A DNA stretch of 64,000 nt, taken from positions 16,046,148 to 16,110,147 of the forward strand of contig OZ020593.1 of NCBI GenBank assembly GCA_963971535.1, in the 5' to 3' direction. The notes under the pieces are model-generated. The model was not told where the DNA came from. It ran no database searches and saw only the letters and a list, made by a program, of their open reading frames with translations. The position numbers and the translations under genes were made by a program. Below, one piece after another: positions 2,252 through 56,964 of the stretch; the stretch's first letter is position 1, and each line of letters starts with the position of its first letter. The stretch is from Notolepis coatsorum (lineage: Eukaryota > Chordata > Actinopteri > Aulopiformes > Paralepididae).

Positions 2252-3014
2252 ACACAGAGGCTCCTATTGCCTCCGGCAGTCTGCTCTAGTCTGGTGCATG
2301 GGACCTTTGTGAGCTAACGTTATCTACCTAGCTATCGTTACTGTTTAAACTAAATGACCCAGTCAACTATTCACTTTTAGTTTAATACATGAGGCATTGT
2401 CTAACGGTATCTAGCTGGCGGGCTACTGATAGCTCCTGATATCAACAAATGCTCCAGCAATAGTCTAGTAGTGGATGATACCTCCGTTAGTTAGGTAGCT
2501 CACGTTAGCTCACTGTTCAAAACGAAATGTCCCAGTAAACTAAATAGTTCACTGAGGCGTTGTCTTAACGTTATCTAGCCGGCTAGCAGTAGCTACAGAT
2601 AGCTCCTGATATCAATGTCTTATAACATTGATTCGATGCGTATTCGAGCCCCTGGCTTGCATCGCAGTCACGAAAGGGGCTAGCTGAGGGAGTAGGATAT
2701 ATCTGCTGAGCCGCAGATATACCCTGCTGAGGGCATGCTGAATGTGATTTGACCAAAGCAGAGTATACACACAGACAGTGGAGCTGTTTGTAGATAGCAA
2801 GCATTTTGACTTGTTGCGTGGTGTCTCGCAGATAATACAACTACAAGTATAATTATATAATATATATATATTTTATAAAAAATAAAAAATAAAGTATATA
2901 TTTAATTTATTTTCTATTTTTTATAAAACCAAAAACGATTGGTATCGGTATCGGTCGATATGGCGCATAGACGATCGGTGATCGGTGGCAAAAAACGTGA
3001 TCGAGGCATCCCTA
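2252..3014. mobile_element. 5'-truncated hAT-like element (TIR ...GAGGCATCCCTA)
   Basis: This is the right-hand 760 bp of the hAT-like element found complete in the tandem units (33189-34193). It ends GATCGAGGCATCCCTA, the reverse complement of a TAGGGATGC-type hAT terminus. The interior holds a palindrome ATATCTGCTGAGCCGCAGATAT near 2700 and an A/T-rich tract at 2850-2930. The left terminus is missing because the copy joins the 2067-2244 block. No transposase is encoded. Confidence 0.6.
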
Positions 3015-3634
3015 TGATCTGTTCCTGAGTCAAATAAACCGATACAAAACGGGACAGCAGACCTGGGAACCACCGTTAAGAGCTGAGGGTTTGGGGTTCA
3101 GTCATGGAGACAGCGGGGGGGCGGGTCAAATCGGGGGCCGATAGATGTTTTCCGGATCCTTCATGTAATGGTCACCAGGGTGGTTGTTTAACCCACTGAA
3201 CTTAACCTACAAGCACATTACGGCCCCAAACGTACCTTGTTGACTGCATGCAATAAGAGAGGAAATTTAGGCGCTCTGGTGTCGGTGTGTCTCGGCTGAT
3301 GGTTGTGGAGGAGTGAGAGATTGACCCTTGTAACTTCTCTCTATTTATACAGTGTAGGGCGCAGTTCTGGAAGGTTCTGCTATGACATCACTGCTATGAC
3401 ATCACACCGTTCCAGAACGTTCTAGCCTGTTCTAACCGGTTTTACTATGACATCACACTGAAGCTTAACTTGAATTACACTATGACACGGCTGCAGTTAC
3501 ACTCCCACCAAACATATATAAGCATTGTATATGATTCTTACTATAACTTAGAGACAATAACTGCCCACATACTGCCTAAAACGTAAAGCAATAACTACAA
3601 TAACTATGGTCCTTGGCCTCCACAGGACGAATCA
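3015..3634 (-). mobile_element. LTR of degenerate BEL/Pao element (3' LTR)
   Basis: The minus-strand segment runs from TGATTCGTCC to GGAACAGATCA, so it has TGAT...ATCA ends and directly follows a purine-rich tract and the end of the pol frame. It contains promoter-like features (see 3342-3455). The left end abuts the CCCTA terminus of the hAT element. It is 620 bp; the copies in the tandem units are 606 bp, the difference being mainly an extra TGACATCACTGCTA-type duplication here. No matching 5' LTR was found upstream of gag, so LTR identity rests on position, ends and promoter content. Confidence 0.6.
3342..3455 (-). promoter_or_regulatory. LTR promoter: TATA box with heat-shock-like and CRE-like motifs
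   Basis: On the minus strand a TATAAATA box lies at 3349-3342. Just upstream are two heat-shock-element-like triplets, TTCTGGAAGGTTC (3365-3377) and TTCCAGAACGTTC (3410-3422), and three TGACATCA words (3383-3390, 3397-3404, 3448-3455), which are one base from a CRE. The same arrangement recurs in the three tandem LTR copies. Binding by HSF or CREB/ATF factors is inference from motif match only. Confidence 0.5.
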
Positions 3635-3718
3635 CCTCAGCCTGCGCCTGGAGGGAGAGGGAAAGATAGAAAGATAGACGGATAGAGATATAGAGAAAGA
3701 TAGAGGGCGCAAGAGACT

Positions 3719-4996
3719 TCATTCTGCTTCCACCAGCGTCACCGTCTTATGGATGGGCCTCTCCAGGTGGACTGGTGTGGAGATGCGCTTTCCTTTCTTA
3801 TCCAGGTTGGGGTCGCTGATAAGCAACTTAAGTCTTCGCACTCTCCCATCTCTCCCTGGGTACACCTCGATAACCTTTGCCATCCTCCACTGGTTACGTG
3901 GTGTGGACTCATGCTGTAGAAGTACAATGTTGTCGACCCTTGCGTTCCTACGATCCTTGGTCCACTTCTGTCTCGGTTGGAGTGTCGTGAGGTACTCCTT
4001 CTTCCATCTTGTCCAGAAGTGGTTGGCTAAGAGTTGCACTCGCCGCCATCTTTTGCGGAGGTACAGATCTTCCTTGACGAGCCTTCCGGGCGGCGGAGCG
4101 AGGATTGTGGACTTCATGGTCAGGATGTGGTTTGGTGTCAGGGGCTCTGGACTAGATGAATCATTGAGACAATCCGTGGTCGGAGGTCTGCTGGTTCCAA
4201 GCGCTATGACTGTCAAGACACTTCTGATGGTCAAGACAAGCCACGTCCAGACACTTCTGATGGTGCGTATTTGTCCTTCCCAGAAAGCAGCAGGCTTCTT
4301 CGTTGCCGCCTTCGTGGGCCCGTTGGCCATGACAGGGTTCTTGGCTGCTGACTTCGTGACTTTCGGAACGGCTTTCCTTGCGGGCCTTTTGGCTTTAACC
4401 TCAGCCTTGGTGATCTTGAAAGAGCCAGAGGCTCCAGTACCCTTGATCCTGACCTGGATGAGAGCTAGAGCCTTCTTTACGGTAGCCAGAGACACCCCGC
4501 TCACTCCCACCTTGACTTCTTCTCCACTTTGTAGCTCGTTCTGCCAAAGCAAGTCTGGGCCTGTGAGCCCGTTAGAGGATATCAGTTGCTCTGCGGTGAG
4601 ACCTCTGGAGGCATGGTCGGCTGGCTTCTCTTCCGGAACCACATACCTCCAATTTGTAGACTCTGTGCTTTGTTTGCTGCGTTCCAAGTTCGACTGGAAC
4701 CTTAGCTCCTCCTGAGCGCTGGGGCTGGCCTCTGCCGCAAGAGCCACGTCCGACTCCAGCATCTTTATGCCATCTGTAGGTATCACAACTTCTGTGATCT
4801 GTGTTCTACCGACATCGTGCCCTTCACTTGTGAGGTCTAAAGAGGACGGTAGATCTGGCAGCACTTGCTTCACACGGACATGGTTACTGATACCGATTGT
4901 ATCTCCATGGTTGCGACCCGGGTTACCACATCCCACCACACTCCAGCCTAAGTTTGTTTGCACTGCAAACGGCTGGTGGTGCTCACCAGCCACCAT
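3719..4996 (-). CDS. BEL/Pao pol remnant with embedded histone H1 fragment (425 aa, degenerate)
   Basis: Residues 1-80 match the A17/BEL-Pao protease-to-RT linker (LGWSVVG near 17-22, IKMLESD near 77-83). The RT and most of RNase H are missing. Residues 114-157 are the end of RNase H/linker (NWRYVVPEEKPADHASRG, then LLWQNE). Residues about 166-237 (4501-4286) read as linker histone H1: GVSLATVKKALA, RIKGTGASGSFKI, KAKRPARKAVPK and KAATKKPA. Then FWEGQIRTIRSV is the region around the integrase catalytic Glu, and 290-425 is the integrase C-terminal domain (LTPNHILTMKS, then LANHFWTRWKKEYL). The zinc-binding and first two Asp motifs of integrase are missing. Not a functional enzyme; a relic open frame carrying a captured gene fragment. 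Confidence 0.8.
   Translation of the reverse strand: MVAGEHHQPFAVQTNLGWSVVGCGNPGRNHGDTIGISNHVRVKQVLPDLPSSLDLTSEGHDVGRTQITEVVIPTDGIKMLESDVALAAEASPSAQEELRFQSNLERSKQSTESTNWRYVVPEEKPADHASRGLTAEQLISSNGLTGPDLLWQNELQSGEEVKVGVSGVSLATVKKALALIQVRIKGTGASGSFKITKAEVKAKRPARKAVPKVTKSAAKNPVMANGPTKAATKKPAAFWEGQIRTIRSVWTWLVLTIRSVLTVIALGTSRPPTTDCLNDSSSPEPLTPNHILTMKSTILAPPPGRLVKEDLYLRKRWRRVQLLANHFWTRWKKEYLTTLQPRQKWTKDRRNARVDNIVLLQHESTPRNQWRMAKVIEVYPGRDGRVRRLKLLISDPNLDKKGKRISTPVHLERPIHKTVTLVEAE
4286..4501 (-). pseudogene. Histone H1 gene fragment inside BEL/Pao pol
   Basis: Translated in the pol frame, about 72 residues resemble linker histone H1. They start with the GVSL..KKALA helix of the globular domain and jump, with about 25-30 residues missing, to the KGTGASGSFK end of the winged helix, a highly conserved H1 motif. 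A tail rich in Lys, Ala and Pro follows. The fragment has no intron, as expected for H1 genes, which are normally intronless. It probably arose by template switching or recombination between H1 and Pao sequence. The H1 match is strong by eye, but which H1 variant cannot be told. Confidence 0.8.
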
Positions 4997-5048
4997 GACT
5001 AGTGGCCGGAGGGCTTGAGCACAGTTGTAGCCAATTAACAGGCCAACA

Positions 5049-6180
5049 TCACAGCGTTGCTCCGGCGCGATATCCTCTGCTATATGTGCCAGATGAGGCC
5101 ATGCCTTCGCTGTCCCTGGTGTGGGAATATGGTCTGTTTGCCGGGATAAACTCTCTTGAGTAGGTCACTGGCAGCGGGATTAGCTTGGTTGAATAGAATC
5201 CTCTTACTTGTAGGCCAGTTAGTTTCCAACTGGGCACGACTGTGTTTCTGGAAGCCAGTGTCGAGAGCTGTAGCTGCACTGCTTCACCCTTGGTTTTGAG
5301 AGCCTTTGCGGTCTTCTCGAGGATAAAGGTGGTGTCACTTTGTGTATCGAGGAGTGCATACACCAGGACTTCCCGGCTTGGCTCCCCTGTAGATGACACC
5401 CACACTGGAACTATTGTGGAGGTATGCGTGTCCCCATCATTCTGGATGACTCTAAACGACGTTGCCTGGTCGTGTGGTGGAGTATTTGTACCTTGGAGTC
5501 ATCCTTTCTTCCGTGGTGTGATCATCATGGAGGCGAGTCATATGTCTTCTATCACAGATCTCGCAGTTGGTTCTATCTCTACAGTCCCTACAGCGATGGC
5601 CCGACTTCAGACAACCAAAGCACAACTGATTTTCGCGAACAAACTTGTTTCGTTCAAACATGGTCTTCTGCATAAACTTGCGACACCTTTGTAGATTATG
5701 GCCGGTCGTAGCACAAAGGACACAGCGTGTGGCGCCGGCTGTCTCATGGACACTGGTTGCTAAGACCCTTGCTCCCAGGTCCCTGCGTCTTGCGCCCAGG
5801 TCCCTCATACCTTCCCGTGGGTTCAGGGCATGAATCGATGTTACTGGGTTGCAAGCTATTTTGGCTTCACGTGTGAGCAACTTGACAAACTGGCTGAAGC
5901 TCGGGAACGTGTGAGTTTCGTCGTTCATGTCTACGACTTTCCTATTCCATCTTGCCGTCACTCCGTCTGGGAGTTTAGAGAGTATTTTCTGGTTCTCGTG
6001 GCAATCATTAAGTATTTCAAGACCTTTGATCTGAGGCATGGCAGCCTCACGCAACATGGCTTTCTTGGCGCCTCCCCCCACGTACTGGCGTATGACACTG
6101 CGTGAAGCCTCTGTGCTCCTAAATAACCTTTTCCAGTTCGCACATCTATTATGACTAATTCTATCTATTTTTAGGGGCAA
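5049..6180 (-). pseudogene. BEL/Pao gag and protease, frameshifted (dispersed copy)
   Basis: The gag frame (5452-6180, 242 aa) carries a Pao-type capsid segment (MPQIKGLEILND, then ILSKLPDGV) and Cys/His knuckles including CFGCLKSGHRCRDC and CEICDRRHMTRLH. A deletion of about 38 nt near 5493, relative to the tandem copies, ends this frame early. The protease segment (5049-5405) keeps YALLDTQSDTTFI, the aspartic protease active site of this family. A 2-nt deletion near 5141 shifts the frame before the IAEDI..VGLLIGYN segment. This copy extends about 90 nt further into gag (FRSTEASRSVIRQYV) than the tandem copies do. Confidence 0.7.
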
Positions 6181-6888: not shown

Positions 6889-7225
6889 GACTTGTTGAAT
6901 ATATATAGGTACACAAATGTTCTAGAATGTTTGATTATGACAGCATACTGTGACATCACGAATGCTCTAGAATGTTCCATTATGACAGCATACTGTGACA
7001 TCACAAATGTTCTAGAATGGTTGACTATGACATCATACTGTGACATCACGAATGTTCTAGAAGGTTCTATTATGACAAATAATCCGGTTCAATGACTTTA
7101 TCTAAATCCAATCAATATTCCTAATGCCGTTTCAATGTAAGGTTATAAAAATAAACATATAAACATTCATATAATACAATAACCTAAATATATAGCTTTG
7201 GCTCCTCTACAATACACTTACCTAG
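6889..7225. mobile_element. hAT-array copy 0, left portion (interrupted by the BEL element)
   Basis: The sequence from TTGTTGAATATATATAGG to ACAATACACTTACCTAG is the same middle segment present in array copies at 16766, 18011 and 23651. It continues after the BEL element at 15850-16058. It holds the 45-bp repeat cluster (6910-7075). Confidence 0.8.
6910..7075. repeat. 45-bp tandem repeat x ~4 with HSE-like and CRE-like motifs
   Basis: TCTAGAA occurs at 6921, 6966, 7011 and 7056, an exact 45-bp period. Each unit pairs a heat-shock-element-like core with TGACATCA or TGACAGCA. The fourth unit reads GAATGTTCTAGAAGGTTC (7051-7068), four perfect alternating GAA/TTC half-sites. Further copies lie at about 16785-16945, 18030-18190, 18401-18535 and 23674-23835. 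The period of 15 codons explains the repetitive peptide frames here. Confidence 0.9.
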
Positions 7226-8599
7226 TGTAACTGAGGGGTACAATTCCCTGACTGTATTGATAAGTATGGTATCATTAAACCACTACCGCTTTATGTACTT
7301 TAACTACTGACCATATAGTACACGATATCTAAATATGATGAACACTTTCCCACCATGAAACCAGGTCCACACAAAGGTAATAATCAAATATTTAATATAT
7401 AGCAAAGGGTACATATAATATTCACCATTACATTTATGATTTGAATGCTCTTGTAAGGCAAATGAGTACTCGTAGGCAAATCAACACTGAATGTCCAATC
7501 TCTGGTTACGCAGGAAGCAAGTATACAACCTGGCTCTTAGGGAATTATAACGATGGCACACTTAATGATTATAGCTGGATATACTGTAGGGGTCCTCCCG
7601 GTTGTAAGCCAGTAGGGGGGGTAGGAGAGCCGTCGGCTGTATCCCGTCTGGTCAACGATGTCTAGGGAGACTTCACGTACAGAAGACAGTGCAGTAGAAT
7701 CTTGATCCACAGATGAATACACCTTGGCTCTCTTGTAGGCTGTAGCTGTAGCTCCACAGTGAAGAAGAAGCGAGGCGACCTCAGTCTGGTCTGAGCGCCG
7801 TCTCACCTTGACTCCTTTCGGGGTAAATCCAACACTCACCGGTGTTGGCGATTATCCGCTCCACAAATCAAAGTACCAAAGCAAATATATATTCCATGCC
7901 GCATAGGGCTCAGCAGTCGTCGGGTAGGTAATCCAATGTACAGGTCCACTCGGTCCTCGCCTAGAACTCCTCGGATGAAAGCACCACGTGTGGTCTGCCC
8001 AACCTGGTTAAGACTCTAGATAACACGAGGAAGCGATGGGGGTGCTGCTCACTTTAGAACTCTAACCGCACGATGCACCATACATAATAGACTATTATTA
8101 CTTAATAGAAATACGGTGCCAAACTCTGGCAATTCAGCTATTAATTCGCACGAGGTCTCAATGCTATTCTAAGGCCAAACAGGCCATACTACACCGCACG
8201 CGGTATCGTGGGGTGAGGCTTCACGTTCTGTTACTTAGTTGGGTAGAAGGGTAAAGGACTAAGGGATAAGAGGACTTCTACATTTCTTGCGCCATATTTA
8301 TATGCACGGTGAACAAATAGTGCCACTCTCTTTTCGGTAGCCGTATTCCTGCGCAGAGCCGGGGCTAGTAGGGACATGTTTCGTCGGTACCATTGAACTT
8401 GGCTCCAAGGGGCTTGTCCCTGGCGCCAGGTCCTTGTCCAATAAGAGAATGAACTATTATGGGCTATTAGTAGACTAAAGGGATATTCCGTGTATATGTA
8501 CAAGGAATATACAAGGGATATCAAACGATATACAAATACTATTCAATATATATCCATAAATAAATATATATATTCGGTTTAATCTGATCCTTCACAACA
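7226..8599 (-). mobile_element. BEL/Pao 3' LTR
   Basis: A 1374-bp repeat with TG...CA ends, near-identical to 14471-15849. By eye I count three substitutions, one 6-bp difference (GTAGCT copy number) and one single-base indel, so the insertion is recent. The flanking target duplicate CCTAG is at 7221-7225. Relative to the minus-strand coding sequence this is the downstream LTR. A purine-rich tract (minus-strand AGGGGGCGGC, 8609-8600) abuts it. Confidence 0.95.
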
Positions 8600-8691: not shown

Positions 8692-11691
8692 TCACAAAGT
8701 CATAGGGTCATGGTCGTCATCGATAGTATCGGGGAGCCTTGGCAGTTCTATTAGCCTCGCCACGGGTCGGGTGTAGGTCCGCCCTTGGACGAGCACTTCA
8801 GCTGCTCGGACCTTTCCATCGGCACCGGTGATCACTTTGCTTACGCGGCCAGCCGGCCACATAGCTCGGGGTAGTGACTGGTCGATAATCATGACGACTG
8901 TTCCTTCTGTCAAATTGTCTCTCTCTTTTACCCACTTCTGGCGGGTCTGTAGAGACGGCAGGTAGTGGAGTAGGAAGCTGTTCCAAAACTTGTCAACCAG
9001 TACTTGACTGTACCTCCACATTCTTCGGCCGTTCGCTTCTTCAGGCCTGTACATTGTCTGGGGTAGCGCGGGGTCCAGCCGCCCCATCAAGAGTGTGTTG
9101 GGGGTGACTGGGTCGACATCTGCTACATCACTTGAGACGTAACCGAGGGGCTTTGAGTTCAATACTCCCTCGATCTCCGTGAGGACTGTCATTAGGACTT
9201 CTTCCGCCACAGTCTGGGCCCCAAGCACGGCGTACAGGGCTGTCTTTATGGAACGTACTTCTCGTTCCCAGGTTCCACCGAAGTGAGGTGCGTTCGGGGG
9301 ATTAAACTGGAAGTCAATCTGGGATGGAGCGAGGTGGGTCTTAAGTTCTGGGCCCATAGCTTGGAAGCTCTCTCTCAGCTCTCTTTCTCCGCCTTTGAAG
9401 TTTGTCCCGTGATCAGACAATAATGTAGACGGTTTTCCTTTCCGTGATGTGAATCTTCGGAAGGCCATAAGGAATGAGTCTGTGCTCATGGTTGGAAGGA
9501 GTTCGATATGTATCGCTCTGGTGGTCATGCATTTGAATACAATACCCCACCGCTTCTCGGTTCCTCTTCCTTTCTTTATATACAGCGGGCCAAAACAGTC
9601 CATACCGGTGGAGTGAAAGGGCTTGTCGCCGAGTCGGAGGCGACAGGGAGGTAGGTCAGCCATCCGGGGTATACTGGGCTGGGCTCGCCACTTACGACAG
9701 TCTATGCAGGTTCGCTGGAAGCGCCGCACTGCTTCTCTCCCTTGCAGTATCCAATAACGACGTCTGATCTCCGCGAATACTCTCTCTGCCCCTGCGTGGT
9801 GCACATCCTCGTCGTATTTCTTTATGATCAGCTCTGTGACCTTGTGTCGGCTGTTCAAGACTATCGGGTACTTGACGTCATCCGGTAAGTCTGGGGCTCT
9901 CCGCAGACGACCACCCACTCTGATGAGATTATGGGCGTCGCTCTCGGGGGCTAGGTGGAGCAGTCTGCTGTCTGATGGGACGGGCTTTGCTCCCTGTAGA
10001 CAGGCTAGCTCATCGGGGAACGAGTCTCTCTGGGCTCGTTGTAGTAGAAGAAGTTCTGCTTCTTCGTAGTCAGCTGCTGAAATGTCAGTTGTGGGCTGAA
10101 CCTCTGGGTGGTGCCACAGAAATGTCTTTAGCTGCGCACTCTGTAGGGTGATGCAATCGTCTATATCGGGGTCTGTGGGGACGAGTGTGTGTGTCAACCC
10201 ACAGAACATAGGTTTCTTGTTCTCTGCCTCCTCTTTACTCGCCTCCCGTGGGGTGGGTGTAGGCCACTCTTCTTCCGGGAGCTTGAGGAACTCTGGCCCG
10301 TCACTGTAGAGGTTGTGACGGGTGAGGTCATCCAGGGACATTCCCCGGGTGATGACGTCAGCTGGGTTGTGTTTGGTGTCCACATACCTCCAGCTGGTTA
10401 CTTCTGTTAACTCTTGAATCTCGGTGACTCTGACTCCCACGAAGACCTTGTATCTGCACGAATCAGACCGGATCCATGTGAGTACGGTCGTGGAGTCTGA
10501 CCACAAGATTGTTCTTTGCACCGGGATGGTGAGTTCACGTTGGATTAACGTGGCGAGCTGCGCTCCTGCTAGGGCTGCGCAGAGCTCTAGACGCGGGATA
10601 GATTGTTGCTTTCGTGGGGCTATTCTTGAGCGAGCCAGGATGAAGGCAGTATGTATTTCTCCTCCCTCCTCTCGGGCACGCAAGTAGGCCACCGAACCGT
10701 AGGCTACTTCGGAGGCGTCGCTGAATACGTGCAGGTCGATCTTGCATGTCTCTGGCCTCACTGTGGGTGGGAAGTAGCTGCGGCGTATATTAACACCTGG
10801 GAGTGAGCGGAGTTCCGTCTCCCACTCTCTCCATGTGGATGCAAGGTGTTCGGGTATGGGATCGTCCCAGCCCTGGTCCTTGTCCCATAGCGCTCTTACA
10901 ATCATCTTTGCCCTGGTGGTGTAAGGTAGAATACATCCCAACGGGTCATATTGTCTGGCGAGTGTTCTGTATACACTCCGTCTGGTGGTCGGTATTGCCG
11001 TCGACCTTCCCTGCTCCTTGGTCAGGGGTTTGTGTCTATAATGGAGCGAGTCTGTTTTGAAGCGCCAGACTAGTCCTAGTGTCATTTCTTGGGCTTCTCC
11101 TGGGATGGTCGCCATCCAGGTGTCGCTGCTCGCTGCCTTGTCCTCGGGGGAGAGGCTGCGCAATACTGGGGGGTCGCTGCTGGCCCGCTGCCGGAGATCA
11201 AAGCCGTCTTTGATCAGGGAGGCGCGGAGCAGCGCACGACGTCGCCAGTCAATTTTCTTTATGTGTCCCGCTGTGATTAGCTTGTTAATCTCAGCGCGGT
11301 ACACAGCTTCTTGAGCGGGGTCTTTGGCTAGGCGCCGCTCTGTGTTCAATAGATACCGCTCCGTCGCCTCTTTTGTGGCGTGAAAGGTGGGCAGTCCCTC
11401 TCGCCTCAGGAGTGGAGTTGCGTATCTCATCACTCCGTTGACGTTGACTCTCTTTGTCCCGTGCTCGAGGAGGGCTATAGCGTAGATATCTTCCTTAGAA
11501 CGAATGTCTTTCTTTTCGCTCTTAAAGGGCATTGTCTCTAGTGTCCATAGCCTCTCGACATGCTGCAGGAGTGTGGTGTCTCCTTCTGTCGCTCTGGAGT
11601 GGAGGCAGCTAGTGGCTGCTGTTCGGTAAGAGACTTGGCGAGGGGGCCTTGTAATGTCCATCCTAGGCGGGTCTCGACTGCTGCAGGACAA
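8692..11691 (-). CDS. BEL/Pao pol: RNase H and integrase, RT core missing (999 aa frame)
   Basis: Residues about 92-147 are the start of the RT region (TPLLRREGLPTFHATKEATE, then INKLITAGHIKKI). The frame then jumps to KDGFDLRQ and the RT connection, so the palm with the YVDD-type active site (roughly 150 residues in relatives) is absent. RNase H is intact: Asp325 in FSDASE, Glu369 in PRLEL, Asp399 in WSDS, Asp445 in NPAD. Integrase is intact: HH near 641 and C662/C665 for zinc; Asp698, Asp760 and Glu809 for DDE; then the C-terminal domain (NTLLMGRLDP, then FWNSFLLHYLPSLQTRQKW). It overlaps gag-protease by 154 nt in another frame. The element should be unable to copy itself without a helper reverse transcriptase. 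Confidence 0.9.
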   Translation of the reverse strand: MSCSSRDPPRMDITRPPRQVSYRTAATSCLHSRATEGDTTLLQHVERLWTLETMPFKSEKKDIRSKEDIYAIALLEHGTKRVNVNGVMRYATPLLRREGLPTFHATKEATERYLLNTERRLAKDPAQEAVYRAEINKLITAGHIKKIDWRRRALLRASLIKDGFDLRQRASSDPPVLRSLSPEDKAASSDTWMATIPGEAQEMTLGLVWRFKTDSLHYRHKPLTKEQGRSTAIPTTRRSVYRTLARQYDPLGCILPYTTRAKMIVRALWDKDQGWDDPIPEHLASTWREWETELRSLPGVNIRRSYFPPTVRPETCKIDLHVFSDASEVAYGSVAYLRAREEGGEIHTAFILARSRIAPRKQQSIPRLELCAALAGAQLATLIQRELTIPVQRTILWSDSTTVLTWIRSDSCRYKVFVGVRVTEIQELTEVTSWRYVDTKHNPADVITRGMSLDDLTRHNLYSDGPEFLKLPEEEWPTPTPREASKEEAENKKPMFCGLTHTLVPTDPDIDDCITLQSAQLKTFLWHHPEVQPTTDISAADYEEAELLLLQRAQRDSFPDELACLQGAKPVPSDSRLLHLAPESDAHNLIRVGGRLRRAPDLPDDVKYPIVLNSRHKVTELIIKKYDEDVHHAGAERVFAEIRRRYWILQGREAVRRFQRTCIDCRKWRAQPSIPRMADLPPCRLRLGDKPFHSTGMDCFGPLYIKKGRGTEKRWGIVFKCMTTRAIHIELLPTMSTDSFLMAFRRFTSRKGKPSTLLSDHGTNFKGGERELRESFQAMGPELKTHLAPSQIDFQFNPPNAPHFGGTWEREVRSIKTALYAVLGAQTVAEEVLMTVLTEIEGVLNSKPLGYVSSDVADVDPVTPNTLLMGRLDPALPQTMYRPEEANGRRMWRYSQVLVDKFWNSFLLHYLPSLQTRQKWVKERDNLTEGTVVMIIDQSLPRAMWPAGRVSKVITGADGKVRAAEVLVQGRTYTRPVARLIELPRLPDTIDDDHDPMTL

Positions 11692-14426
11692 CCTCTGGGT
11701 CCTGTATGGACCCGGTCTATCGGGACTATGAGGTCTGCATGGTCGGAGCCTATCAGCAGGGTCGGGGTGGCGCCGTCTATGAGCGGGATAGGGAGTTGAC
11801 GCAGGTGCACATATTTATCCATCAGCTTGGCGATGGGGTAGGTGTACTGCGATAGTCCTATTTCTTGGCTGGTGAAAGCATTAGTAATCCTATACCGTCT
11901 CTCGGGCTGCCCGCTTGCTGCGATAGTGAAGGAGACATTCTCGCCCTTTATCGTCTTTAGATCTCTTCTTATTGTCCGAATCGTCATCTGGTTCTCGCTC
12001 CCCCGCAGCCCCAGCTGGGCCGCAGCGGACGCGAGGAGAAGGGTCTTCTCTGACCCGTCATCAAGGACGGCGTAAGTGTCCATGACCTTATCTTGGTAAC
12101 TCAGTGTTACGCGGACCACCTTTAAGAGCACCTGGGCGCCGCTGCTGCTAGCGGGGTCAATATACATAACACTTGCCTTTGTGCTGCTGGATGGTGCAGG
12201 CTTTCTTTTGTTACTGTCGTGTAGGACATCTAGGTGGGCTCCGTCACACCTACTACACCTCTTCTTGAGGCGGCACTCGGCTGCCATGTGACTGCGCGCA
12301 CATCGGTAACAGCGCCTGTTGGACTTTATCCAGTGACTCACTTCTTCAGCGGTCATCTTCTTGAACTGGTCACATAGTGACAACCAGTGTTCCTTCTCGC
12401 AGTACGGGCACACCATCTTCCACTTCTCTTTCATCGAGGGGGTACTGTGGTTCTTGCTGCTCGGTACTGATTCTGATTGGTGCATGACAGTCACCGATCT
12501 TCGGCCATCGTTTGCTCTCCTAGGTCCCTCTCTGGAGCTGGGTGTGCTCCGCACGAACGTATCCAGCCGTAGGCTGCTGACTTCTCTCGCCAGGAAGTCG
12601 GCTAGGTCTAGGAGGGATGGCTCGGGACCGTTAGGATCACGGTGGTCTCTTTGCCGCCTGAAGCGCTCTTGTCGGGCGGGCGGCAGCTTCTCTAAAATCC
12701 TCTCGACGTTCGAGTTTGCGTATAGTTCGTGCATACCCTTTTCTCGTTGCGCCCCCAGCATCCCTACCAGGGATTGTACTTTGATAGACAGGTCGTCTAG
12801 TGAGCGATTGTCTGTTGCTGGGGGTAGGCGGTCAATATGCCTTATCTCTTGTATTACGTAATCCCATATACGTCCATATCTTTGGTCTAGTGCTGCTAGA
12901 GCCGCTGTGTATGGGGTAGTAGAGGTGGCATAGGCCAGCGCTATGTTGTGCGCTCTGGGCACTTTCAGGTGCTTCAATAGGATTGCATACTTGTGGCGTT
13001 CATCAGCGACATCCACCATCATTGTCTCTAAGCACATCCGTAGCTCCGTGTACTGTGCTCGGTTCTCATGGGTGAAGTCTGGAAACGTCGGTGTGCCAAT
13101 GTATGACGCCGTGGATGGCTGGCACATCGGTGAGCGTTGGAAGAGAGGCCTCCTGGGCGAGTCTCCTCTTACGCCTCTCGGTGGGCTGGTACTGGCAGGG
13201 TACCATGGCCCGCTGGTCCAGGTGCTATTCCTCGGGACTGGTCGTGCGTCATGCTCACCCGTGAATCGAGTCAGGGGTCTGTAGCGCAGAGCCGCGGGGG
13301 TATAGCCTGGGCTGTACTGGACCTCCTGGTCCTGTGGAGTAATGTGCTGCTGTAGGGCTTGACTCTCCTCTTCTCCCTCTTCTTCCTCTGCCAGGTCTTC
13401 TAGATCCTGTAGTCGTCTATTTAGCCTCTCCGCGGTGTCCGCTGTTCCTTCCTTGTAGCTGGGTCTCACTTGGACCGGTCGGGGAAGGAGTTCGGAGGGG
13501 GGTGTGGGCTCTCTCTGGCGGTCGGGCTCAGGGTCGCTTAATCGGTTAGGGGAGGGTGCCCTTGACCCGTGTCTTGACGAGGCCCTGGAACCCCTTGTGG
13601 AGGGAGGGGGTGTTGCCCTGGTGATCAGCTGCTCCATTAGCTGCGCTTGTAGTCTGTCGCGCTCGGCTTGTAGTCTGTCGCGCTCGGCTTCGCGCTGGAT
13701 GAGAGCGATGTCGCGCTCTGCTTCTCTTTGGGCACCGTCAGTGGCGCGCTGGGTGTCGGCCCGGTCTCTTGCCATATTCTCTTCCGTCTGAAGGCGTCTC
13801 AGCTCCAGACGTATGTGCTCTTCTTCGCTGCGTTGCTGTGTTTGGAGTCGATCGCGTTCACCCTGAAGTCGATCGTGTTCACCCTGAAGTCGATCGCGTT
13901 CGGTAGAGGCTGTCAGGGTGGCGAGGAACGCCTGTGACAGCATCCTCTCCGCCTCGCTGGGGGAAAACGCTTGTTGAGGTGATCCGCTCCTGGCAGTACC
14001 GGTCGGGGATGCGTTCCCCTGCGGGGAGTCCTGGAGCTCTATCTCCTCGGCGCTCTCCTCATCTTGTTCCGTGCAGAGTTCCATCTCTGAAGGGTTGTCT
14101 TCCTCCCGGAGCTCTTGGGGGACTACTTCTTCGGTCTTGGCGGGGGGTAAAGTCGTGTCAGTTCCCTCCTGGTCCCCACCGTGAGCTTGGTCAGTTACAT
14201 TAGAACCCACTAGGGCCTCTGTGGTCGGGGTATCCTGGTTGATAGGGTCGGACATAATTTTACTTTCTACTTTTACCGCGTTTACCGTTTGTAGAAGGCT
14301 AGGTAGTATACTGGCAGCGTAATCCTCTAAGTACTGAGGTGGCTGTCGTCTACGCTGCGGGCGTTCTACTTTAGGAGGACCGTTTCGTGGAGTGTTCATC
14401 ATAGGCCATTTCAATATTAATACCAC
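11538..14426 (-). CDS. BEL/Pao gag-protease (962 aa)
   Basis: Met9/Met10 (MNTPRNGPPK) may be the true start. Residues 155-270 form a charged coiled coil with repeated RDRLQxE units. About 450-620 is the Pao gag capsid-like domain (TELRMCLETMM, then VERILEKLPPARQERF). Cys/His knuckles lie at 672-736 (CPYCEKEHWLSLC, CYRCARSHMAAEC, CSRCDGAHLDVLH). The aspartic protease has VLDDGSE at about 787-793, followed by LLIGSDHADLI and LGWTLQGPL. The frame ends shortly after, and pol continues in another frame. Because BEL/Pao elements usually encode one long polyprotein, a frameshift near 11570-11600 is the likely cause; a programmed shift cannot be excluded. Confidence 0.88.
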   Translation of the reverse strand: MVLILKWPMMNTPRNGPPKVERPQRRRQPPQYLEDYAASILPSLLQTVNAVKVESKIMSDPINQDTPTTEALVGSNVTDQAHGGDQEGTDTTLPPAKTEEVVPQELREEDNPSEMELCTEQDEESAEEIELQDSPQGNASPTGTARSGSPQQAFSPSEAERMLSQAFLATLTASTERDRLQGEHDRLQGERDRLQTQQRSEEEHIRLELRRLQTEENMARDRADTQRATDGAQREAERDIALIQREAERDRLQAERDRLQAQLMEQLITRATPPPSTRGSRASSRHGSRAPSPNRLSDPEPDRQREPTPPSELLPRPVQVRPSYKEGTADTAERLNRRLQDLEDLAEEEEGEEESQALQQHITPQDQEVQYSPGYTPAALRYRPLTRFTGEHDARPVPRNSTWTSGPWYPASTSPPRGVRGDSPRRPLFQRSPMCQPSTASYIGTPTFPDFTHENRAQYTELRMCLETMMVDVADERHKYAILLKHLKVPRAHNIALAYATSTTPYTAALAALDQRYGRIWDYVIQEIRHIDRLPPATDNRSLDDLSIKVQSLVGMLGAQREKGMHELYANSNVERILEKLPPARQERFRRQRDHRDPNGPEPSLLDLADFLAREVSSLRLDTFVRSTPSSREGPRRANDGRRSVTVMHQSESVPSSKNHSTPSMKEKWKMVCPYCEKEHWLSLCDQFKKMTAEEVSHWIKSNRRCYRCARSHMAAECRLKKRCSRCDGAHLDVLHDSNKRKPAPSSSTKASVMYIDPASSSGAQVLLKVVRVTLSYQDKVMDTYAVLDDGSEKTLLLASAAAQLGLRGSENQMTIRTIRRDLKTIKGENVSFTIAASGQPERRYRITNAFTSQEIGLSQYTYPIAKLMDKYVHLRQLPIPLIDGATPTLLIGSDHADLIVPIDRVHTGPRGCPAAVETRLGWTLQGPLAKSLTEQQPLAASTPERQKETPHSCSMSRGYGH

Positions 14427-14451: not shown

Positions 14452-14468
14452 TCCGGCTCGAAGGACCA
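14452..14468 (-). other. Primer binding site, tRNA-Tyr type
   Basis: The minus strand reads TGGTCCTTCGAGCCGGA two bases inside the 5' LTR. Its complement TCCGGCTCGAAGGACCA matches, from memory, the 3' end including CCA of eukaryotic tRNA-Tyr over all 17 positions. This fixes the orientation of the element. Confidence 0.8.
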
Positions 14469-14470
14469 AT

Positions 14471-15849
14471 TGTAACTGAGGGGTACAATTCCCTGACTGT
14501 ATTGATAAGTATGGTATCATTAAACCACTACCGCTTTATGTACTTTAACTACTGGCCATACAGTACACGATATCTAAATATGATGAACACTTTCCCACCA
14601 TGAAACCAGGTCCACACAAAGGTAATAATCAAATATTTAATATATAGCAAAGGGTACATATAATATTCACCATTACATTTATGATTTGAATGCTCTTGTA
14701 AGGCAAATGAGTACTCGTAGGCAAATCAACACTGAATGTCCAATCTCTGGTTACGCAGGAAGCAAGTATACAACCTGGCTCTTAGGGAATTATAACGATG
14801 GCACACTTAATGATTATAGCTGGATATACTGTAGGGGTCCTCCCGGTTGTAAGCCAGTAGGGGGGGTAGGAGAGCCGTCGGCTGTATCCCGTCTGGTCAA
14901 CGATGTCTAGGGAGACTTCACGTACAGAAGACAGTGCAGTAGAATCTTGATCCACAGATGAATACACCTTGGCTCTCTTGTAGGCTGTAGCTGTAGCTGT
15001 AGCTCCACAGTGAAGAAGAAGCGAGGCGACCTCAGTCTGGTCTGAGCGCCGTCTCACCTTGACTCCTTTCGGGGTAAATCCAACACTCACCGGTGTTGGC
15101 GATTATCCGCTCCACAAATCAAAGTACCAAAGCAAATATATATTCCATGCCGCATAGGGCTCAGCAGTCGTCGGGTAGGTAATCCAATGTACAGGTCCAC
15201 TCGGTCCTCGCCTAGAACTCCTCGGATGAAAGCACCACGTGTGGTCTGCCCAACCTGGTTAAGACTCTAGATAACACGAGGAAGCGATGGGGGTGCTGCT
15301 CACTTTAGAACTCTAACCGCACGATGCACCATACATAATAGACTATTATTACTTAATAGAAATACGGTGCCAAACTCTGGCAATTCAGCTATTAATTCGC
15401 ACGAGGTCTCAATGCTATTCTAAGGCCAAACAGGCCATACTACACCGCACGCGGTATCGTGGGGTGAGGCTTCACGTTCTGTTACTTAGTTGGGTAGAAG
15501 GGTAAAGGACTAAGGGATAAGAGGACTTCTACATTTCTTGCGCCATATTTATATGCACGTGAACAAATAGTGCCACTCTCTTTTCGGTAGCCGTATTCCT
15601 GCGCAGAGCCGGGGCTAGTAGGGACATGTTTCGTCGGTACCATTGAACTTGGCTCCAAGGGGCTTGTCCCTGGCGCCAGGTCCTTGTCCAATAAGAGAAT
15701 GAACTATTATGGGCTATTAGTAGACTAAAGGGATATTCTGTGTATATGTACAAGGAATATACAAGGGATATCAAACGATATACAAATACTATTCAATATA
15801 TATCCATAAATAAATATATATATTCGGTTTAATCTGATCCTTCACAACA
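14471..15849 (-). mobile_element. BEL/Pao 5' LTR
   Basis: A 1379-bp partner of 7226-8599 with TG...CA ends. The target duplicate CCTAG follows at 15850-15854. Other copies of the host repeat keep the uninterrupted site ACTTACCTAGGATTTG (for example near 17090, 18335, 18680 and 23980), confirming a 5-bp duplication and exact element ends at 7226 and 15849. Confidence 0.95.
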
Positions 15850-16159: not shown

Positions 16160-17300
16160 TAGGGATGGGTACCGAATTCGGTACTTTTAAAGGTACTTAC
16201 CGAAACACATCGGTACTACCGAGTATCGATTCACGTGATACCGTAAAAGAAAGAAAAAAAAATCTTTTTTTTTGCACTTTTTTTATATATTTTTTAACCT
16301 TTTTTCTTTTCATGTCGTTCACACGCACAATATACGTATCAGGGCCGACGTTCCACTCTATTGGTTAAAGTTGCTTACTCGTGAGTAGTACGTTCGTTGA
16401 TAAAGAAAAATAAGGTCCACAGCCGCTCCAGTGTAAAACAAAGATATCCAAATGGTTTATTTCTCTTCCACAGCGAAGTCTTTCTTTACAGAAGTGATCC
16501 TAAAGCTATTTTCCTAAATATTCATGTCACTACAAGGTAAGAAAACTGTATTTTCCCCGTCTCCTAAATCACCGCAGACTCGACACATGAAAATTCCTCC
16601 TCACCTGAAAGCCGTAAATAAACTTGCCGGCTCTTTCCACAGCAAAACGGTCGGCAAGGCACCTTGGTTGAGAGATGCAGGCTTCAATCTATGTTGTTTA
16701 GTCTATCTGTTCAGTACTGCTCAGCACTGTTTCAAGATGCACACTGAGCTCTTCAGAGAGAATTGTTGAATATATATAGATACACAAATGTTCTAGAATG
16801 TTTGATTATGACAGCATACTGGACATCACGAATGCTCTAGAATGTTCCATTATGACAGCATACTGTGACATCACAAATGTTCTAGAATGGTTGACTATGA
16901 CATCATACTGTGACATCACGAATGTTCTAGAAGGTTCTATTATGACAAATAATACGGTTCAATGACTTTATCTAAATCCAATCAATATTCCTAATGCCGT
17001 TTCAATGTAAGGTTATAAAAATAAACATATAAACATTCATATAATACAATAACCTAAATATATAGCTTTGGCTCCTCTACAATACACTTACCTAGGATTT
17101 GACTTGATTCAACAACAAAGCAGTCGGGGCAATGGCAAGCCGAAAACGGTCGAAAGTGTAGTTAGTTGAAGTTTGGATATTTTTTTTCCGACTGAGGTAG
17201 GTAGATTACATTTTTAGAGACTAAAGTACCGAAAAAGGGTACCGTTGGGTACCGGTATCGATTCACAGGTACCGGTACCGTATCGGTTCAAATGTGAACG
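16160..17300. mobile_element. hAT-array copy 1
   Basis: The left terminus TAGGGATGGGTACCG is preceded by the target duplicate TTGCTTAT (16152-16159). The right side stops at GTGAACG without the final 13 bp. It contains an exon-like segment (16474-16536) and the 45-bp repeats. The period to the next copy is 1242 bp, including about 100 bp of host flank (16059-16159) that was duplicated along with the element. Confidence 0.85.
16474..16536 (+). other. Exon-like 63-nt segment in hAT copy 1
   Basis: It is bounded by TTTCTCTTCCACAG and AAG/GTAAGA, near-consensus splice sites on the plus strand. One frame is open (EVFLYRSDPKAIFLNIHVTT). It could be a lost transposase exon or a chance pair of sites. 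Copy 2 (17719-17781) keeps both sites; copy 3 (19297-19359) has GTTAGA as donor. Confidence 0.3.
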
Positions 17301-17401: not shown

Positions 17402-18889
17402 TAGGGATGGGTACCGAATTCGATACTTTTAAAGGTACTTACCGAAACACATCGGTACTACCGAGTATCGATTCACGTGATACCGTAAAAGAAAGAAAAA
17501 AAAATATATTTTTTTGCACTTTTTTTATATATTTTTTAACCTTTTTTCTTTTCATGTCAACGTTCACACGCACAATATACGTATCAGGGCCGACGTTCCA
17601 CTCTATTGGTTAAAGTTGCTTACTCGTGAGTAGTACGTTCGTTGATAAAGAAAAATAAGGTCCACAGCCGCTCCAGTGTAAAACAAAGATATCCAAATGG
17701 TTTATTTCTCTTCCACAGCGAAGTCTTTCTTTACAGAAGTGATCCTAAAGCTATTTTCCTAAATATTCATGTCACTACAAGGTAAGAAAACTGTATTTTC
17801 CCCGTCTCCTAAATCACCGCAGACTCGACACATGAAAATTCCTCCTCACCTGAAAGCCGTAAATAAACTTGCCGGCTCTTTCCACAGCAAAACGGTCGGC
17901 AAGGCACCTTGGTTGAGAGATGCAGGCTTCAATCTATGTTGTTTAGTCTATCTGTTCAGTACTGCTCAGCACTGTTTCAAGATGCACAATGAGCTCTTCA
18001 GAGAGAATTGTTGAATATATATAGATACACAAATGTTCTAGAATGTTTGATTATGACAGCATACTGGACATCACGAATGCTCTAGAATGTTCCATTATGA
18101 CAGCATACTGTGACATCACAAATGTTCTAGAATGGTTGACTATGACATCATACTGTGACATCACGAATGTTCTAGAAGGTTCTATTATGACAAATAATAC
18201 GGTTCAATGACTTTATCTAAATCCAATCAATATTCCTAATGCCGTTTCAATGTAAGGTTATAAAAATAAACATATAAACATTCATATAATACAATAACCT
18301 AAATATATAGCTTTGGCTCCTCTACAATACACTTACCTAGGATTTGACTTGATTCAACAACAAAGCAGTCGGGGCAATGGCAAGCCGAAAACGGTCGAAA
18401 CAGCATACTGGACATCACGAATGCTCTAGAATGTTCCATTATGACAGCATACTGTGACATCACAAATGTTCTAGAATGGTTGACTATGACATCATACTGT
18501 GACATCACGAATGTTCTAGAAGGTTCTATTATGACAAATAATACGGTTCAATGACTTTATCTAAATCCAATCAATATTCCTAATGCCGTTTCAATGTAAG
18601 GTTATAAAAATAAACATATAAACATTCATATAATACAATAACCTAAATATATAGCTTTGGCTCCTCTACAATACACTTACCTAGGATTTGACTTGATTCA
18701 ACAACAAAGCAGTCGGGGCAATGGCAAGCCGAAAACGGTCGAAAGTGTAGTTAGTTGAAGTTTGGATATTTTTTTTCCGACTGAGGTAGGTAGATTACAT
18801 TTTTAGAGACTAAAGTACCGAAAAAGGGTACCGTTGGGTACCGGTATCGATTCACAGGTACCGGTACCGTATCGGTTCAAATGTGAACG
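17402..18889. mobile_element. hAT-array copy 2, with internal 344-bp tandem duplication
   Basis: It has the same termini and flank as copy 1, with TTGCTTAT at 17394-17401. Positions 18057-18400 are repeated at 18401-18744, starting with CAGCATACTGGACATCACG, which carries extra HSE/CRE-like units. It ends at GTGAACG/ATAAATAAAG (18889/18890). Confidence 0.85.
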
Positions 18890-23647: not shown

Positions 23648-24211
23648 AGAATTGTTGAATATGTATAGATACACAAATGTTCTAGAATGTTTGATTATGA
23701 CAGCATACTGTGACATCACAAATGCTCTAGAATGTTCCATTATGACAGCATACTGTGACATCACAAATGTTCTAGAATGGTTGACTATGACATCATACTG
23801 TGACATCACGAATGTTCTAGAAGGTTCTATTATGACAAATAATACGGTTCAATGACTTTATCTAAATCCAATCAATATTCCTAATGCCGTTTCAATGTAA
23901 GGTTATAAAAATAAACATATAAACATTCATATAATACAATAACCTAAATATATAGCTTTGGCTCCTCTACAATACACTTACCTAGGATTTGACTTGATTC
24001 AACAACAAAGCAGTCGGGGCAATGGCAAGCCGAAAACGGTCGAAAGTGTAGTTAGTTGAAGTTTGGATATTTTTTTTCCGACTGAGGTAGGTAGATTACA
24101 TTTTTAGAGACTAAAGTACAGAAAAAGGGTACCGTTGGGTACCGGTATCGATTCACAGGTACCGGTACCGTGTCGGTTCAAATGTGAACGGTACCCATCC
24201 CTATTGCTTAT

Positions 24212-26249: not shown

Positions 26250-26350
26250 CTACATTGAGTCTAGAACATTACCGCTGCCACAACATTCTGGAACGTTCTG
26301 GAGGAAGTCATAGCGGACCATTCTAGAACATCGAACATCCTGGCATTACA
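26250..26350. promoter_or_regulatory. Heat-shock-element-like cluster upstream of a small plus-strand ORF (U1)
   Basis: TTCTGGAACGTTCTGGAG (26286-26303) contains alternating TTC/GAA half-sites, and TTCTAGAA follows at 26321-26328, less than 40 bp before the ATG at 26356. Repeated in U2-U4 (offsets 11079, 10616, 10631). No TATA box is obvious on the plus strand. Function is inferred from motif only. Confidence 0.35.
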
Positions 26351-26355
26351 TCAAG

Positions 26356-34883: not shown

Positions 34884-35717
34884 TCATTCTGCTTCCACCA
34901 GCGTCACCGTCTTATGGATGGGCCTCTCCAGGTGGACTGGTGTGGAGATGCGCTTTCCTTTCTTATCCAGGTTGGGGTCGCTGATAAGCAACTTAAGTCT
35001 TCGCACTCTCCCATCTCTCCCTGGGTACACCTCGATAACCTTCGCCATCCTCCACTGGTTACGTGGTGTGGACTCATGCTGTAGAAGTACAATGTTGTCG
35101 ACCCTTGCGTTCCTACGATCCTTGGTCCACTTCTGTCTCGGTTGGAGTGTCGTGAGGTACTCCTTCTTCCATCTTGTCCAGAAGTGGTTGGCTAAGAGTT
35201 GCACTCGCCGCCATCTTTTGCGGAGGTACAGATCTTCCTTGACGAGCCTTCCGGGCGGTGGAGCGAGGATTGTGGACTTCATGGTCAGGATGTGGTTTGG
35301 TGTCAGGGGCTCTGGACTAGATGAATCATTGAGACAATCCGTGGTCGGAGGTCTGCTGGTTCCAAGCGCTATGACTGTCAAGACACTTCTGATGGTCAAG
35401 ACAAGCCACGTCCAGACACTTCTGATGGTGCGTATTTGTCCTTCCCAGAAAGCAGCAGGCTTCTTCGTTGCCGCCTTCGTGGGCCCGTTGGCCATGACAG
35501 GGTTCTTGGCTGCTGGCTTCGTGGCTTTCGGAACGGCTTTCCTTGCGGGCCTTTTGGCTTTAACCTCAGCCTTGGTGATCTTGAAAGAGCCAGAGGCTCC
35601 GGTACCCTTGATCCTGACCTGGATGAGAGCTAGAGCCTTCTTTACGGTAGCCAGAGACACCCCGCTCCCTCCCACCTTGACTTCTTCTCCACTTTGTAGC
35701 TCGTTCTGCCAAAGCAA
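34884..35717 (-). CDS. Chimeric histone H1 fragment / BEL integrase C-terminal frame (277 aa, U1)
   Basis: Residues 1-10 are the Pao linker (MLWQNELQSG). Residues 18-89 (35666-35451) are the histone H1 fragment (GVSLATVKKALA, KGTGASGSFK, Lys/Ala/Pro tail). About 90-105 is FWEGQIRTIRSV from the integrase Glu region, and about 140-277 is the integrase C-terminal domain (LTPNHILTMKS, RKRWRRVQLLANHFWTRWKKEYL). Compared with the dispersed copy the H1 part differs at three residues (Gly for Val, Ala for Val, Pro for Ser), all tolerated by the frame. Expression is unknown; the nearby LTR lies downstream of this frame, not upstream. Confidence 0.7.
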   Translation of the reverse strand: MLWQNELQSGEEVKVGGSGVSLATVKKALALIQVRIKGTGASGSFKITKAEVKAKRPARKAVPKATKPAAKNPVMANGPTKAATKKPAAFWEGQIRTIRSVWTWLVLTIRSVLTVIALGTSRPPTTDCLNDSSSPEPLTPNHILTMKSTILAPPPGRLVKEDLYLRKRWRRVQLLANHFWTRWKKEYLTTLQPRQKWTKDRRNARVDNIVLLQHESTPRNQWRMAKVIEVYPGRDGRVRRLKLLISDPNLDKKGKRISTPVHLERPIHKTVTLVEAE

Positions 35718-37273: not shown

Positions 37274-37434
37274 GTACTGGCGTAGACAGTAAAACTGGCT
37301 GCACCCCGATGGCTCTTCAGTAGCAGCACTACATTGAGTCTAGAACATTACCGCTGCCACAACATTCTGGAACGTTCTGGAGGAAGTCATAGCGGAACAT
37401 TCTAGAACATCGAACATCCTGGCATTACATCAAG

Positions 37435-45499: not shown

Positions 45500-46333
45500 T
45501 CATTCTGCTTCCACCAGCGTCACCGTCTTATGGATGGGCCTCTCCAGGTGGACTGGTGTGGAGATGCGCTTTCCTTTCTTATCCAGGTTGGGGTCGCTGA
45601 TAAGCAACTTAAGTCTTCGCACTCTCCCATCTCTCCCTGGGTACACCTCGATAACCTTCGCCATCCTCCACTGGTTACGTGGTGTGGACTCATGCTGTAG
45701 AAGTACAATGTTGTCGACCCTTGCGTTCCTACGATCCTTGGTCCACTTCTGTCTCGGTTGGAGTGTCGTGAGGTACTCCTTCTTCCATCTTGTCCAGAAG
45801 TGGTTGGCTAAGAGTTGCACTCGCCGCCATCTTTTGCGGAGGTACAGATCTTCCTTGACGAGCCTTCCGGGCGGTGGAGCGAGGATTGTGGACTTCATGG
45901 TCAGGATGTGGTTTGGTGTCAGGGGCTCTGGACTAGATGAATCATTGAGACAATCCGTGGTCGGAGGTCTGCTGGTTCCAAGCGCTATGACTGTCAAGAC
46001 ACTTCTGATGGTCAAGACAAGCCACGTCCAGACACTTCTGATGGTGCGTATTTGTCCTTCCCAGAAAGCAGCAGGCTTCTTCGTTGCCGCCTTCGTGGGC
46101 CCGTTGGCCATGACAGGGTTCTTGGCTGCTGGCTTCGTGGCTTTCGGAACGGCTTTCCTTGCGGGCCTTTTGGCTTTAACCTCAGCCTTGGTGATCTTGA
46201 AAGAGCCAGAGGCTCCGGTACCCTTGATCCTGACCTGGATGAGAGCTAGAGCCTTCTTTACGGTAGCCAGAGACACCCCGCTCCCTCCCACCTTGACTTC
46301 TTCTCCACTTTGTAGCTCGTTCTGCCAAAGCAA
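45500..46333 (-). CDS. Chimeric histone H1 fragment / BEL integrase C-terminal frame (U2)
   Basis: Same 277-residue frame as U1; the H1 part is at 46282-46067. Confidence 0.7.
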   Translation of the reverse strand: MLWQNELQSGEEVKVGGSGVSLATVKKALALIQVRIKGTGASGSFKITKAEVKAKRPARKAVPKATKPAAKNPVMANGPTKAATKKPAAFWEGQIRTIRSVWTWLVLTIRSVLTVIALGTSRPPTTDCLNDSSSPEPLTPNHILTMKSTILAPPPGRLVKEDLYLRKRWRRVQLLANHFWTRWKKEYLTTLQPRQKWTKDRRNARVDNIVLLQHESTPRNQWRMAKVIEVYPGRDGRVRRLKLLISDPNLDKKGKRISTPVHLERPIHKTVTLVEAE

Positions 46334-56130: not shown

Positions 56131-56964
56131 TCATTCTGCTTCCACCAGCGTCACCGTCTTATGGATGGGCCTCTCCAGGTGGACTGGTGTGGAGATGCGC
56201 TTTCCTTTCTTATCCAGGTTGGGGTCGCTGATAAGCAACTTAAGTCTTCGCACTCTCCCATCTCTCCCTGGGTACACCTCGATAACCTTCGCCATCCTCC
56301 ACTGGTTACGTGGTGTGGACTCATGCTGTAGAAGTACAATGTTGTCGACCCTTGCGTTCCTACGATCCTTGGTCCACTTCTGTCTCGGTTGGAGTGTCGT
56401 GAGGTACTCCTTCTTCCATCTTGTCCAGAAGTGGTTGGCTAAGAGTTGCACTCGCCGCCATCTTTTGCGGAGGTACAGATCTTCCTTGACGAGCCTTCCG
56501 GGCGGTGGAGCGAGGATTGTGGACTTCATGGTCAGGATGTGGTTTGGTGTCAGGGGCTCTGGACTAGATGAATCATTGAGACAATCCGTGGTCGGAGGTC
56601 TGCTGGTTCCAAGCGCTATGACTGTCAAGACACTTCTGATGGTCAAGACAAGCCACGTCCAGACACTTCTGATGGTGCGTATTTGTCCTTCCCAGAAAGC
56701 AGCAGGCTTCTTCGTTGCCGCCTTCGTGGGCCCGTTGGCCATGACAGGGTTCTTGGCTGCTGGCTTCGTGGCTTTCGGAACGGCTTTCCTTGCGGGCCTT
56801 TTGGCTTTAACCTCAGCCTTGGTGATCTTGAAAGAGCCAGAGGCTCCGGTACCCTTGATCCTGACCTGGATGAGAGCTAGAGCCTTCTTTACGGTAGCCA
56901 GAGACACCCCGCTCCCTCCCACCTTGACTTCTTCTCCACTTTGTAGCTCGTTCTGCCAAAGCAA
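56131..56964 (-). CDS. Chimeric histone H1 fragment / BEL integrase C-terminal frame (U3)
   Basis: Same 277-residue frame as U1; the H1 part is at 56913-56698. Confidence 0.7.
   Translation of the reverse strand: MLWQNELQSGEEVKVGGSGVSLATVKKALALIQVRIKGTGASGSFKITKAEVKAKRPARKAVPKATKPAAKNPVMANGPTKAATKKPAAFWEGQIRTIRSVWTWLVLTIRSVLTVIALGTSRPPTTDCLNDSSSPEPLTPNHILTMKSTILAPPPGRLVKEDLYLRKRWRRVQLLANHFWTRWKKEYLTTLQPRQKWTKDRRNARVDNIVLLQHESTPRNQWRMAKVIEVYPGRDGRVRRLKLLISDPNLDKKGKRISTPVHLERPIHKTVTLVEAE

Follow-up and report, generated by a model that had tools for sequence, protein, structure and literature searches.

A piece of a host histone H1 gene in frame within a dispersed BEL/Pao element

We analysed a window of 64 kb (G000:C27:16046148-16110147) of a 3.42-Gb assembly, and found a 425-codon open frame on the minus strand (4996-3719) that runs from a Pao-like pol remnant through a histone H1 stretch into an integrase C-terminal domain. 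The H1 stretch reads GVSLATVKKALA, followed by KGTGASGSFK and then a Lys/Ala/Pro tail. The H1 piece itself covers 217 nt (4287..4503, minus strand), and its parts are 89-91% identical to host H1 genes. It is made up of the GVSL helix region, a net 69-nt deletion, KGTGASGSFK and part of the Lys/Ala/Pro tail. At its 3' joint are two nucleotides (4285..4286, minus strand) that fit neither H1 nor the H1-less relatives of the element, and may be filler or mutation. These are followed by a BEL/Pao integrase remnant (3719..4284, minus strand), extending from the catalytic-E region, which we take to be marked by WERQIRT in the relatives, through the C-terminal domain. A profile search found DUF5641 in this frame with an E value of 5.5e-27.

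On the other side of the H1 piece, the RNase H C-terminal tail and linker (4504..4690, minus strand) end at the 5' H1 joint. The joint left by the RT/RNase H deletion is at ~4678-4690 (minus strand) and occurs likewise in an H1-less copy, L025. Next come a protease-like and pre-RT part of the Pao remnant (4691..5489, minus strand) and a gag-like part (5490..6097, minus strand), at the end of which homology to the other window copies stops. The RNase H tail, the protease-like part and a zinc knuckle in the gag-like part were named from motifs, and these names are presumptive. Two remnants of a 3' LTR were also found on the minus strand, its start (TGTAACTGCAG type; 3446..3504) and its middle (3177..3351), with 89.8% and 81.9% identity, respectively, to an LTR on contig C1. 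A tRNA scan of the window found none.

The initial annotation had described an H1 gene fragment in frame in a BEL/Pao pol. The PF00538 scores at the four window places bearing the piece (14.6-15 bits) were under the 22.4-bit cut-off, and a solved-structure search with the whole window frame gave three matches, the best of them to H1.0 (E 0.084). Part of the set passed the gathering score, namely a relative on contig C13 (L012; 52.4 bits, E 6.2e-14), whereas the four window places fell below it and L028 had no reported match. The H1 piece of L012 is contiguous, 290 nt long and 97.2% identical to a host H1 gene, which rules out a chance or low-complexity Lys/Ala/Pro likeness. Seven host H1 stretches matched pieces of window 4287-4506 at 89-91% identity. 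Based on these DNA matches and on the PF00538 score of the C13 relative, we identify window 4287-4503 as a fragment derived from the host's H1 gene that lies in frame within a BEL/Pao pol remnant, despite the sub-threshold window profile. Thus the description stood, borne out by host H1 genes, by two relatives that lack H1 and by many chimeras joined at the same two points; the profile was negative at the window and positive in the C13 relative, and DNA identity decided the case of the window. The captured piece is an H1 fragment and no H1 gene: its winged-helix domain is incomplete, as the piece starts at SGVSL and the window type lacks a net 69 nt.

We read six of the host H1 stretches. All encode an H1-like protein, one of which (C46) ends early. 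None of these six frames is interrupted by an intron, and therefore an origin from mRNA and one from genomic DNA are indistinguishable. The H1 piece of L012 starts at SGVSL, presumably past the first helix of its globular domain, and stops within the tail. The distance between the joint strings is 291 nt in L012 versus 222 nt in the window type, a net loss of 69 nt; in other lineages it ranges from 210 to 237 nt. The nucleotides missing from the window fragment lie between KKALA and KGTG and are retained in the C13 copy. Both shortened lineages lost the middle helix stretch of H1, which we take to be the recognition helix.

The H1 piece recurs in the window as three tandem copies with a period of ~10.6 kb (copy 1, 35452..35668; copy 2, 46068..46284; copy 3, 56699..56915; all minus strand). 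The first place (2252-6097) is 97% identical to these copies, which are near-identical among themselves. An open frame had been proposed at all four places. It extends over 425 codons at the first, whereas at the tandem three the H1-bearing frame is open for 288 codons, with a stop upstream in the RNase H tail. In a wider search, at least 10 full-length matches were located on C27 at 15.90-16.45 Mb among the best 40 of 221 candidates scored. Since these matches lie within that interval, we regard them as local duplicates and not as independent events. Separate captures at the four window places are ruled out by the tandem array structure. The first window copy is truncated: gag-like homology ends near 6097, and only parts of the 3' LTR are left near 3177-3504. 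The window copies are a truncated insertion that was tandemly duplicated later.

Two relatives without H1, L025 (C9) and L029 (C6), both frame-broken, indicate what the H1 piece replaced. In these the linker GEVKVG continues into integrase sequence and then WERQIRTIRSV, whereas in the chimeras GEVKVG continues into H1, and the H1 tail into FWERQIRT or its variants. H1 therefore sits where the zinc domain and most of the core would be. This agrees with the earlier proposal that H1 replaced the integrase zinc domain and catalytic core, as most of the core, from the linker to the catalytic-E region, is gone by comparison with the two H1-less relatives. L029 retains the end of RNase H, as we name it from its motif.

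RT and most of RNase H are also absent from the chimeras, and this loss is common to H1-less L025. Among 15 H1-bearing copies searched for the RT/RNase H deletion joint, 12 had it, as did L025, whereas L011, L047 and L049 gave no match to the motif. A search of L025 for H1 found none. Since L025 lacks both RT and H1, the simplest order is RT loss followed by capture, and the capture was probably made by a non-autonomous derivative. DUF5641 was found in P0001 and L028 and DUF1759 in L012, both of which we take as BEL/Pao markers. The H2C2 zinc domain scored below the curated cut-off of 25.5 (21.0 bits in L028, 18.2 bits in L029). With RT and a complete integrase absent, the chimera appears to be a non-autonomous BEL/Pao derivative, and the copies that we read are predicted to be incapable of their own reverse transcription or integration.

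The chimera is dispersed in the genome. We compared 34 H1-in-Pao stretches: 30 lie outside the C27 cluster, on 16 contigs, and four within it, two of these in the window. The set did not include nine more stretches of that cluster (L001-L008, L022). The chimera thus occurs at no fewer than 30 places outside the C27 cluster, on 16 contigs, and such copy numbers are lower bounds. Both joint strings were matched with at most two mismatches in 30 of the 34 stretches. The exceptions are L024 and L027, which are poor at the 5' string (L027 with intervening sequence), L049 without the 3' joint and L050 without the 5' joint. In the search with the 5' joint, 20 of 40 matches cross the joint, on nine contigs (best 40 of 157 candidates); all 40 do so in the search with the 3' joint, on 14 contigs (best 40 of 154 candidates). 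The genome search for Pao-H1 junctions therefore confirmed that both joints recur at many unlinked places. Joints recurring at so many unlinked places rule out misassembly. Because the joints are common to the copies, we infer a single H1 capture that was later dispersed. In L027 (C23), ~1.2 kb of other sequence lies between the Pao linker and H1, and contains a 249-codon frame that, in our view, resembles part of a LINE.

LTR pairs were found in some copies. The C13 copy has an LTR-like pair that is 97.7% identical over 561 nt, with no clear target duplication on reading, and the copy at C32:57.5 Mb has one that is 97.4% identical over 349 nt. In the C1 copy the 5' LTR is 471 nt long, and 389 nt of it recur at the 3' side with 100% identity; this 3' LTR is split by inserted sequence. 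The C1 LTR ends are TGTAAC...GTTACA, and GTGAT is present on both outer sides, a 5-bp target duplication recognised by eye in this one copy. TGAT just outside the 5' LTR is common to C1 and C27. No 5' flank is common to C1 and C27, or to C1 and C7, over 100 nt. The 3' sides of C1 and C7 have 466 nt in common (99.6%), which in C1 lie within the inserted sequence. A 3' LTR was not found in the C27 and C7 stretches fetched. We read the C1, C27 and C7 copies as separate insertions that were altered later on their 3' side. LTR pairs and the target duplication were found outside the window only, and the window copy has 3' LTR remnants.

A further form, represented by L028, has an integrase N-part ahead of GEVKVG-H1. 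At its extra joint, the string ACCA is common to an integrase-bearing relative and an H1-bearing one. At least six matches, including the query's own place, are identical over 321 nt on five contigs (C1, C4, C6 with two, C7 and C27), among the best 40 of 260 candidates. Having regained the integrase N-part, this later form has spread in recent times. With an integrase probe from L029, 22 of 40 matches (best 40 of 101 candidates) fell, by comparison of coordinates, at places also found for the L028 type; two of the remaining 18, L025 and L029, were read.

Taken together, we propose the following course of events, to which we assign a probability of roughly 0.85: an RT-less BEL/Pao derivative captured H1 once, was mobilised through its LTRs, and carries the H1 piece as a tolerated passenger. 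The derivative, already without RT and most of RNase H, would have acquired a host H1 coding piece of ~290 nt. Inserted in frame, this piece would have replaced the stretch between the RNase H-integrase linker and the catalytic-E region. The acquisition most likely took place by two template switches, from Pao RNA to a co-packaged H1 mRNA and back to Pao RNA, while a related autonomous element was carrying out reverse transcription. The resulting chimeric LTR element would then have been mobilised in trans, probably by a related element bearing RT and integrase (a putative helper). It would have diverged into two types, the window type, in which H1 is 69 nt shorter, and a second one that has different in-frame deletions. 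The second type would then have been joined to the integrase N-part by another switch, at the common ACCA, giving the youngest form seen. The joints do not prove template switching: overlapping microhomology is missing from the 5' joint, and at the 3' joint two bases match neither parent.

The same joint features could result from end joining, and recombination or break repair at the DNA level between a Pao copy and an H1 gene would likewise give a single chimera with later transposition. This route remains a rival because the host H1 frames have no intron to lose. H1-like matches are also numerous on C9 and C32 (among the best 40 of 221 candidates scored). However, DNA repair would need two breaks and the loss of the integrase segment, yet the outcome is in frame, and the later ACCA joint between two element forms resembles a switch. 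We consider this route unlikely, although it has to be weighed seriously.

We also examined selection on the H1 part. Compared with host gene H13, the dN/dS of the H1 part was 1.30 for the window array, 1.07 for L010, 1.02 for L047, 0.67 for L012 and 0.60 for L028, whereas dN/dS between two host H1 genes was 0.08. Against two other host genes, L012 gave 0.27 and 0.44. Between element copies the H1 values ranged from 0.22 to 4.59, on few changes. These values rule out strong purifying selection on the H1 residues. For the integrase end, dN/dS was 0.15 (window array and L028), 0.44 (L029 and window array) and 0.88 (L012 and window array); it was lower than that of H1 in many pairs but not in all, and exceeded 1 in some pairs with broken copies. 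In 29 of 30 stretches the length between the joints changes in steps of three nucleotides; many of these stretches share events by descent, and such steps leave other frame breaks possible. H1 and the integrase end share one uninterrupted frame in 19 of the 34 stretches, and four (L030, L037, L049, L050) yielded no in-frame KGTG motif. We read these observations as a frame that was mostly kept while the H1 residues drifted almost neutrally. The frames could be open partly through the youth of the copies.

The H1 part might instead be a selected new domain, a basic segment that helps the element protein to bind nucleic acid or chromatin. The in-frame length steps favour this idea, and so does the net charge, which remains between +9 and +21 across the 14 copies compared. 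The youngest copies seen carry H1. In a related experiment, whole human H1, not a piece of it, fused to parts of LEDGF/p75 bound chromatin in a study of HIV-1 cofactors, according to the part of the report available (PMC2706977). However, dN/dS is near 1 in most host comparisons. The charge also falls: it is +23 in the host stretch and +21 in L012, but ranges from +13 to +16 among copies of the window type and from +9 to +12 among those of the second type. The middle helix stretch is gone in both of these lineages. We therefore regard a selected domain as improbable. The more specific version, in which the H1 segment is a histone-derived basic tether that replaces the integrase parts and works in a recently spreading, trans-mobilised element, is equally doubtful; if true, such a role would explain why the frame was kept while the element spread. 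Instead, the H1 piece is probably a tolerated in-frame passenger carried in trans, for which the frame matters more than the residues.

Histone mRNA normally carries no poly-A tail, and LINE retroposition is for this reason a less natural route for the H1 piece. An H1 retrocopy made by a LINE could have been inserted into a Pao copy, with its ends and the integrase part deleted afterwards. Such retrocopies are common in general, as stated in the available part of PMC5408686. However, both joints lie within H1 coding sequence, no poly-A is present at the joints read, and even the copy that has changed least (C13) shows these joints, which makes this origin very improbable. An assembly or chance artefact, in the form of misassembly or low-complexity Lys/Ala/Pro sequence, would fit the window profile score under the cut-off, but is hardly conceivable given 97.2% identity over 290 nt, the PF00538 match (E 6e-14) and the recurrence of both joints at many unlinked places.

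Host gene pieces in LTR elements are already known. As far as the available parts of the cited papers describe them, the following systems are comparable. Bs1 of maize is an LTR element with host coding pieces in a hybrid frame (PMC13317346, PMC5408686). The likeness lies in a host coding piece between LTRs, which in our case is also found in dispersed copies. However, Bs1 belongs to a plant and has taken up pieces of three other genes, whereas here a BEL/Pao element has a single H1 piece in place of the integrase core, as well as a later form that regained the integrase N-part and spread. The model of LTR-mediated retroposition invokes a template switch between LTR RNA and cellular mRNA (PMC5408686, PMC13317346). 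Like the chimeras in PMC5408686, the one found here has joints inside coding sequence and lies between LTRs. Those chimeras showed microsimilarity at the switch points, whereas no overlap is present at our 5' joint; unlike them, our chimera forms a multi-copy subfamily. Surveys of rice and sorghum reported many host genes captured by LTR elements, some of them expressed (PMC3726574). These are plant surveys, and the capture of host genes by LTR elements is what they have in common with our case. Like canonical BEL/Pao elements, the chimera has LTRs, a gag with DUF1759 and an integrase C-terminal DUF5641, but RT and most of RNase H are lost and the integrase core gave way to H1. The initial annotation had known of no described BEL/Pao element with H1. 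Likewise, we found no H1 in BEL/Pao or any other LTR element among the records listed from the literature searched, whose scope did not extend to subscription journals and preprints, nor in the accessible part of PMC8616336.

The case presents a multi-step gene capture by an LTR element, of which one genome preserves several stages: the H1-less element, a copy that lacks RT as well as H1, the primary chimera and the secondary recombinant. It also makes testable whether a histone piece exceeds a passenger role in a mobile element.

Several minor observations were made in the window and its surroundings. The tandem array spans 25480-61842, in units of ~10.6 kb, of which the two longest pairs show 99.6-99.8% identity. 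Judging by the coordinates of the H1 matches, the block seems to occur again ~146 kb off on C27 (15.90-15.96 Mb), either as a segmental duplication or as an assembly duplicate. A gag-start-like frame (KMSDSGSHSK...) is present on the plus strand at 26314-26589 and 37393-37668, in opposite orientation beside the Pao remnant, and suggests an inversion inside the array unit. A second, different element adjoins the H1-bearing remnant at 8692-14426 (minus strand), with open frames of 962 and 999 codons; we call it BEL/Pao-like from its motifs. It is flanked by direct repeats (7220-8599 and 14465-15849) that are 99.1% identical over 1386 nt. Finally, a 45-nt minisatellite (CACAAATGTTCTAGAATG...) recurs in the window at 6912-7077, 16783-16947, 18028-18744 and 23672-23837.
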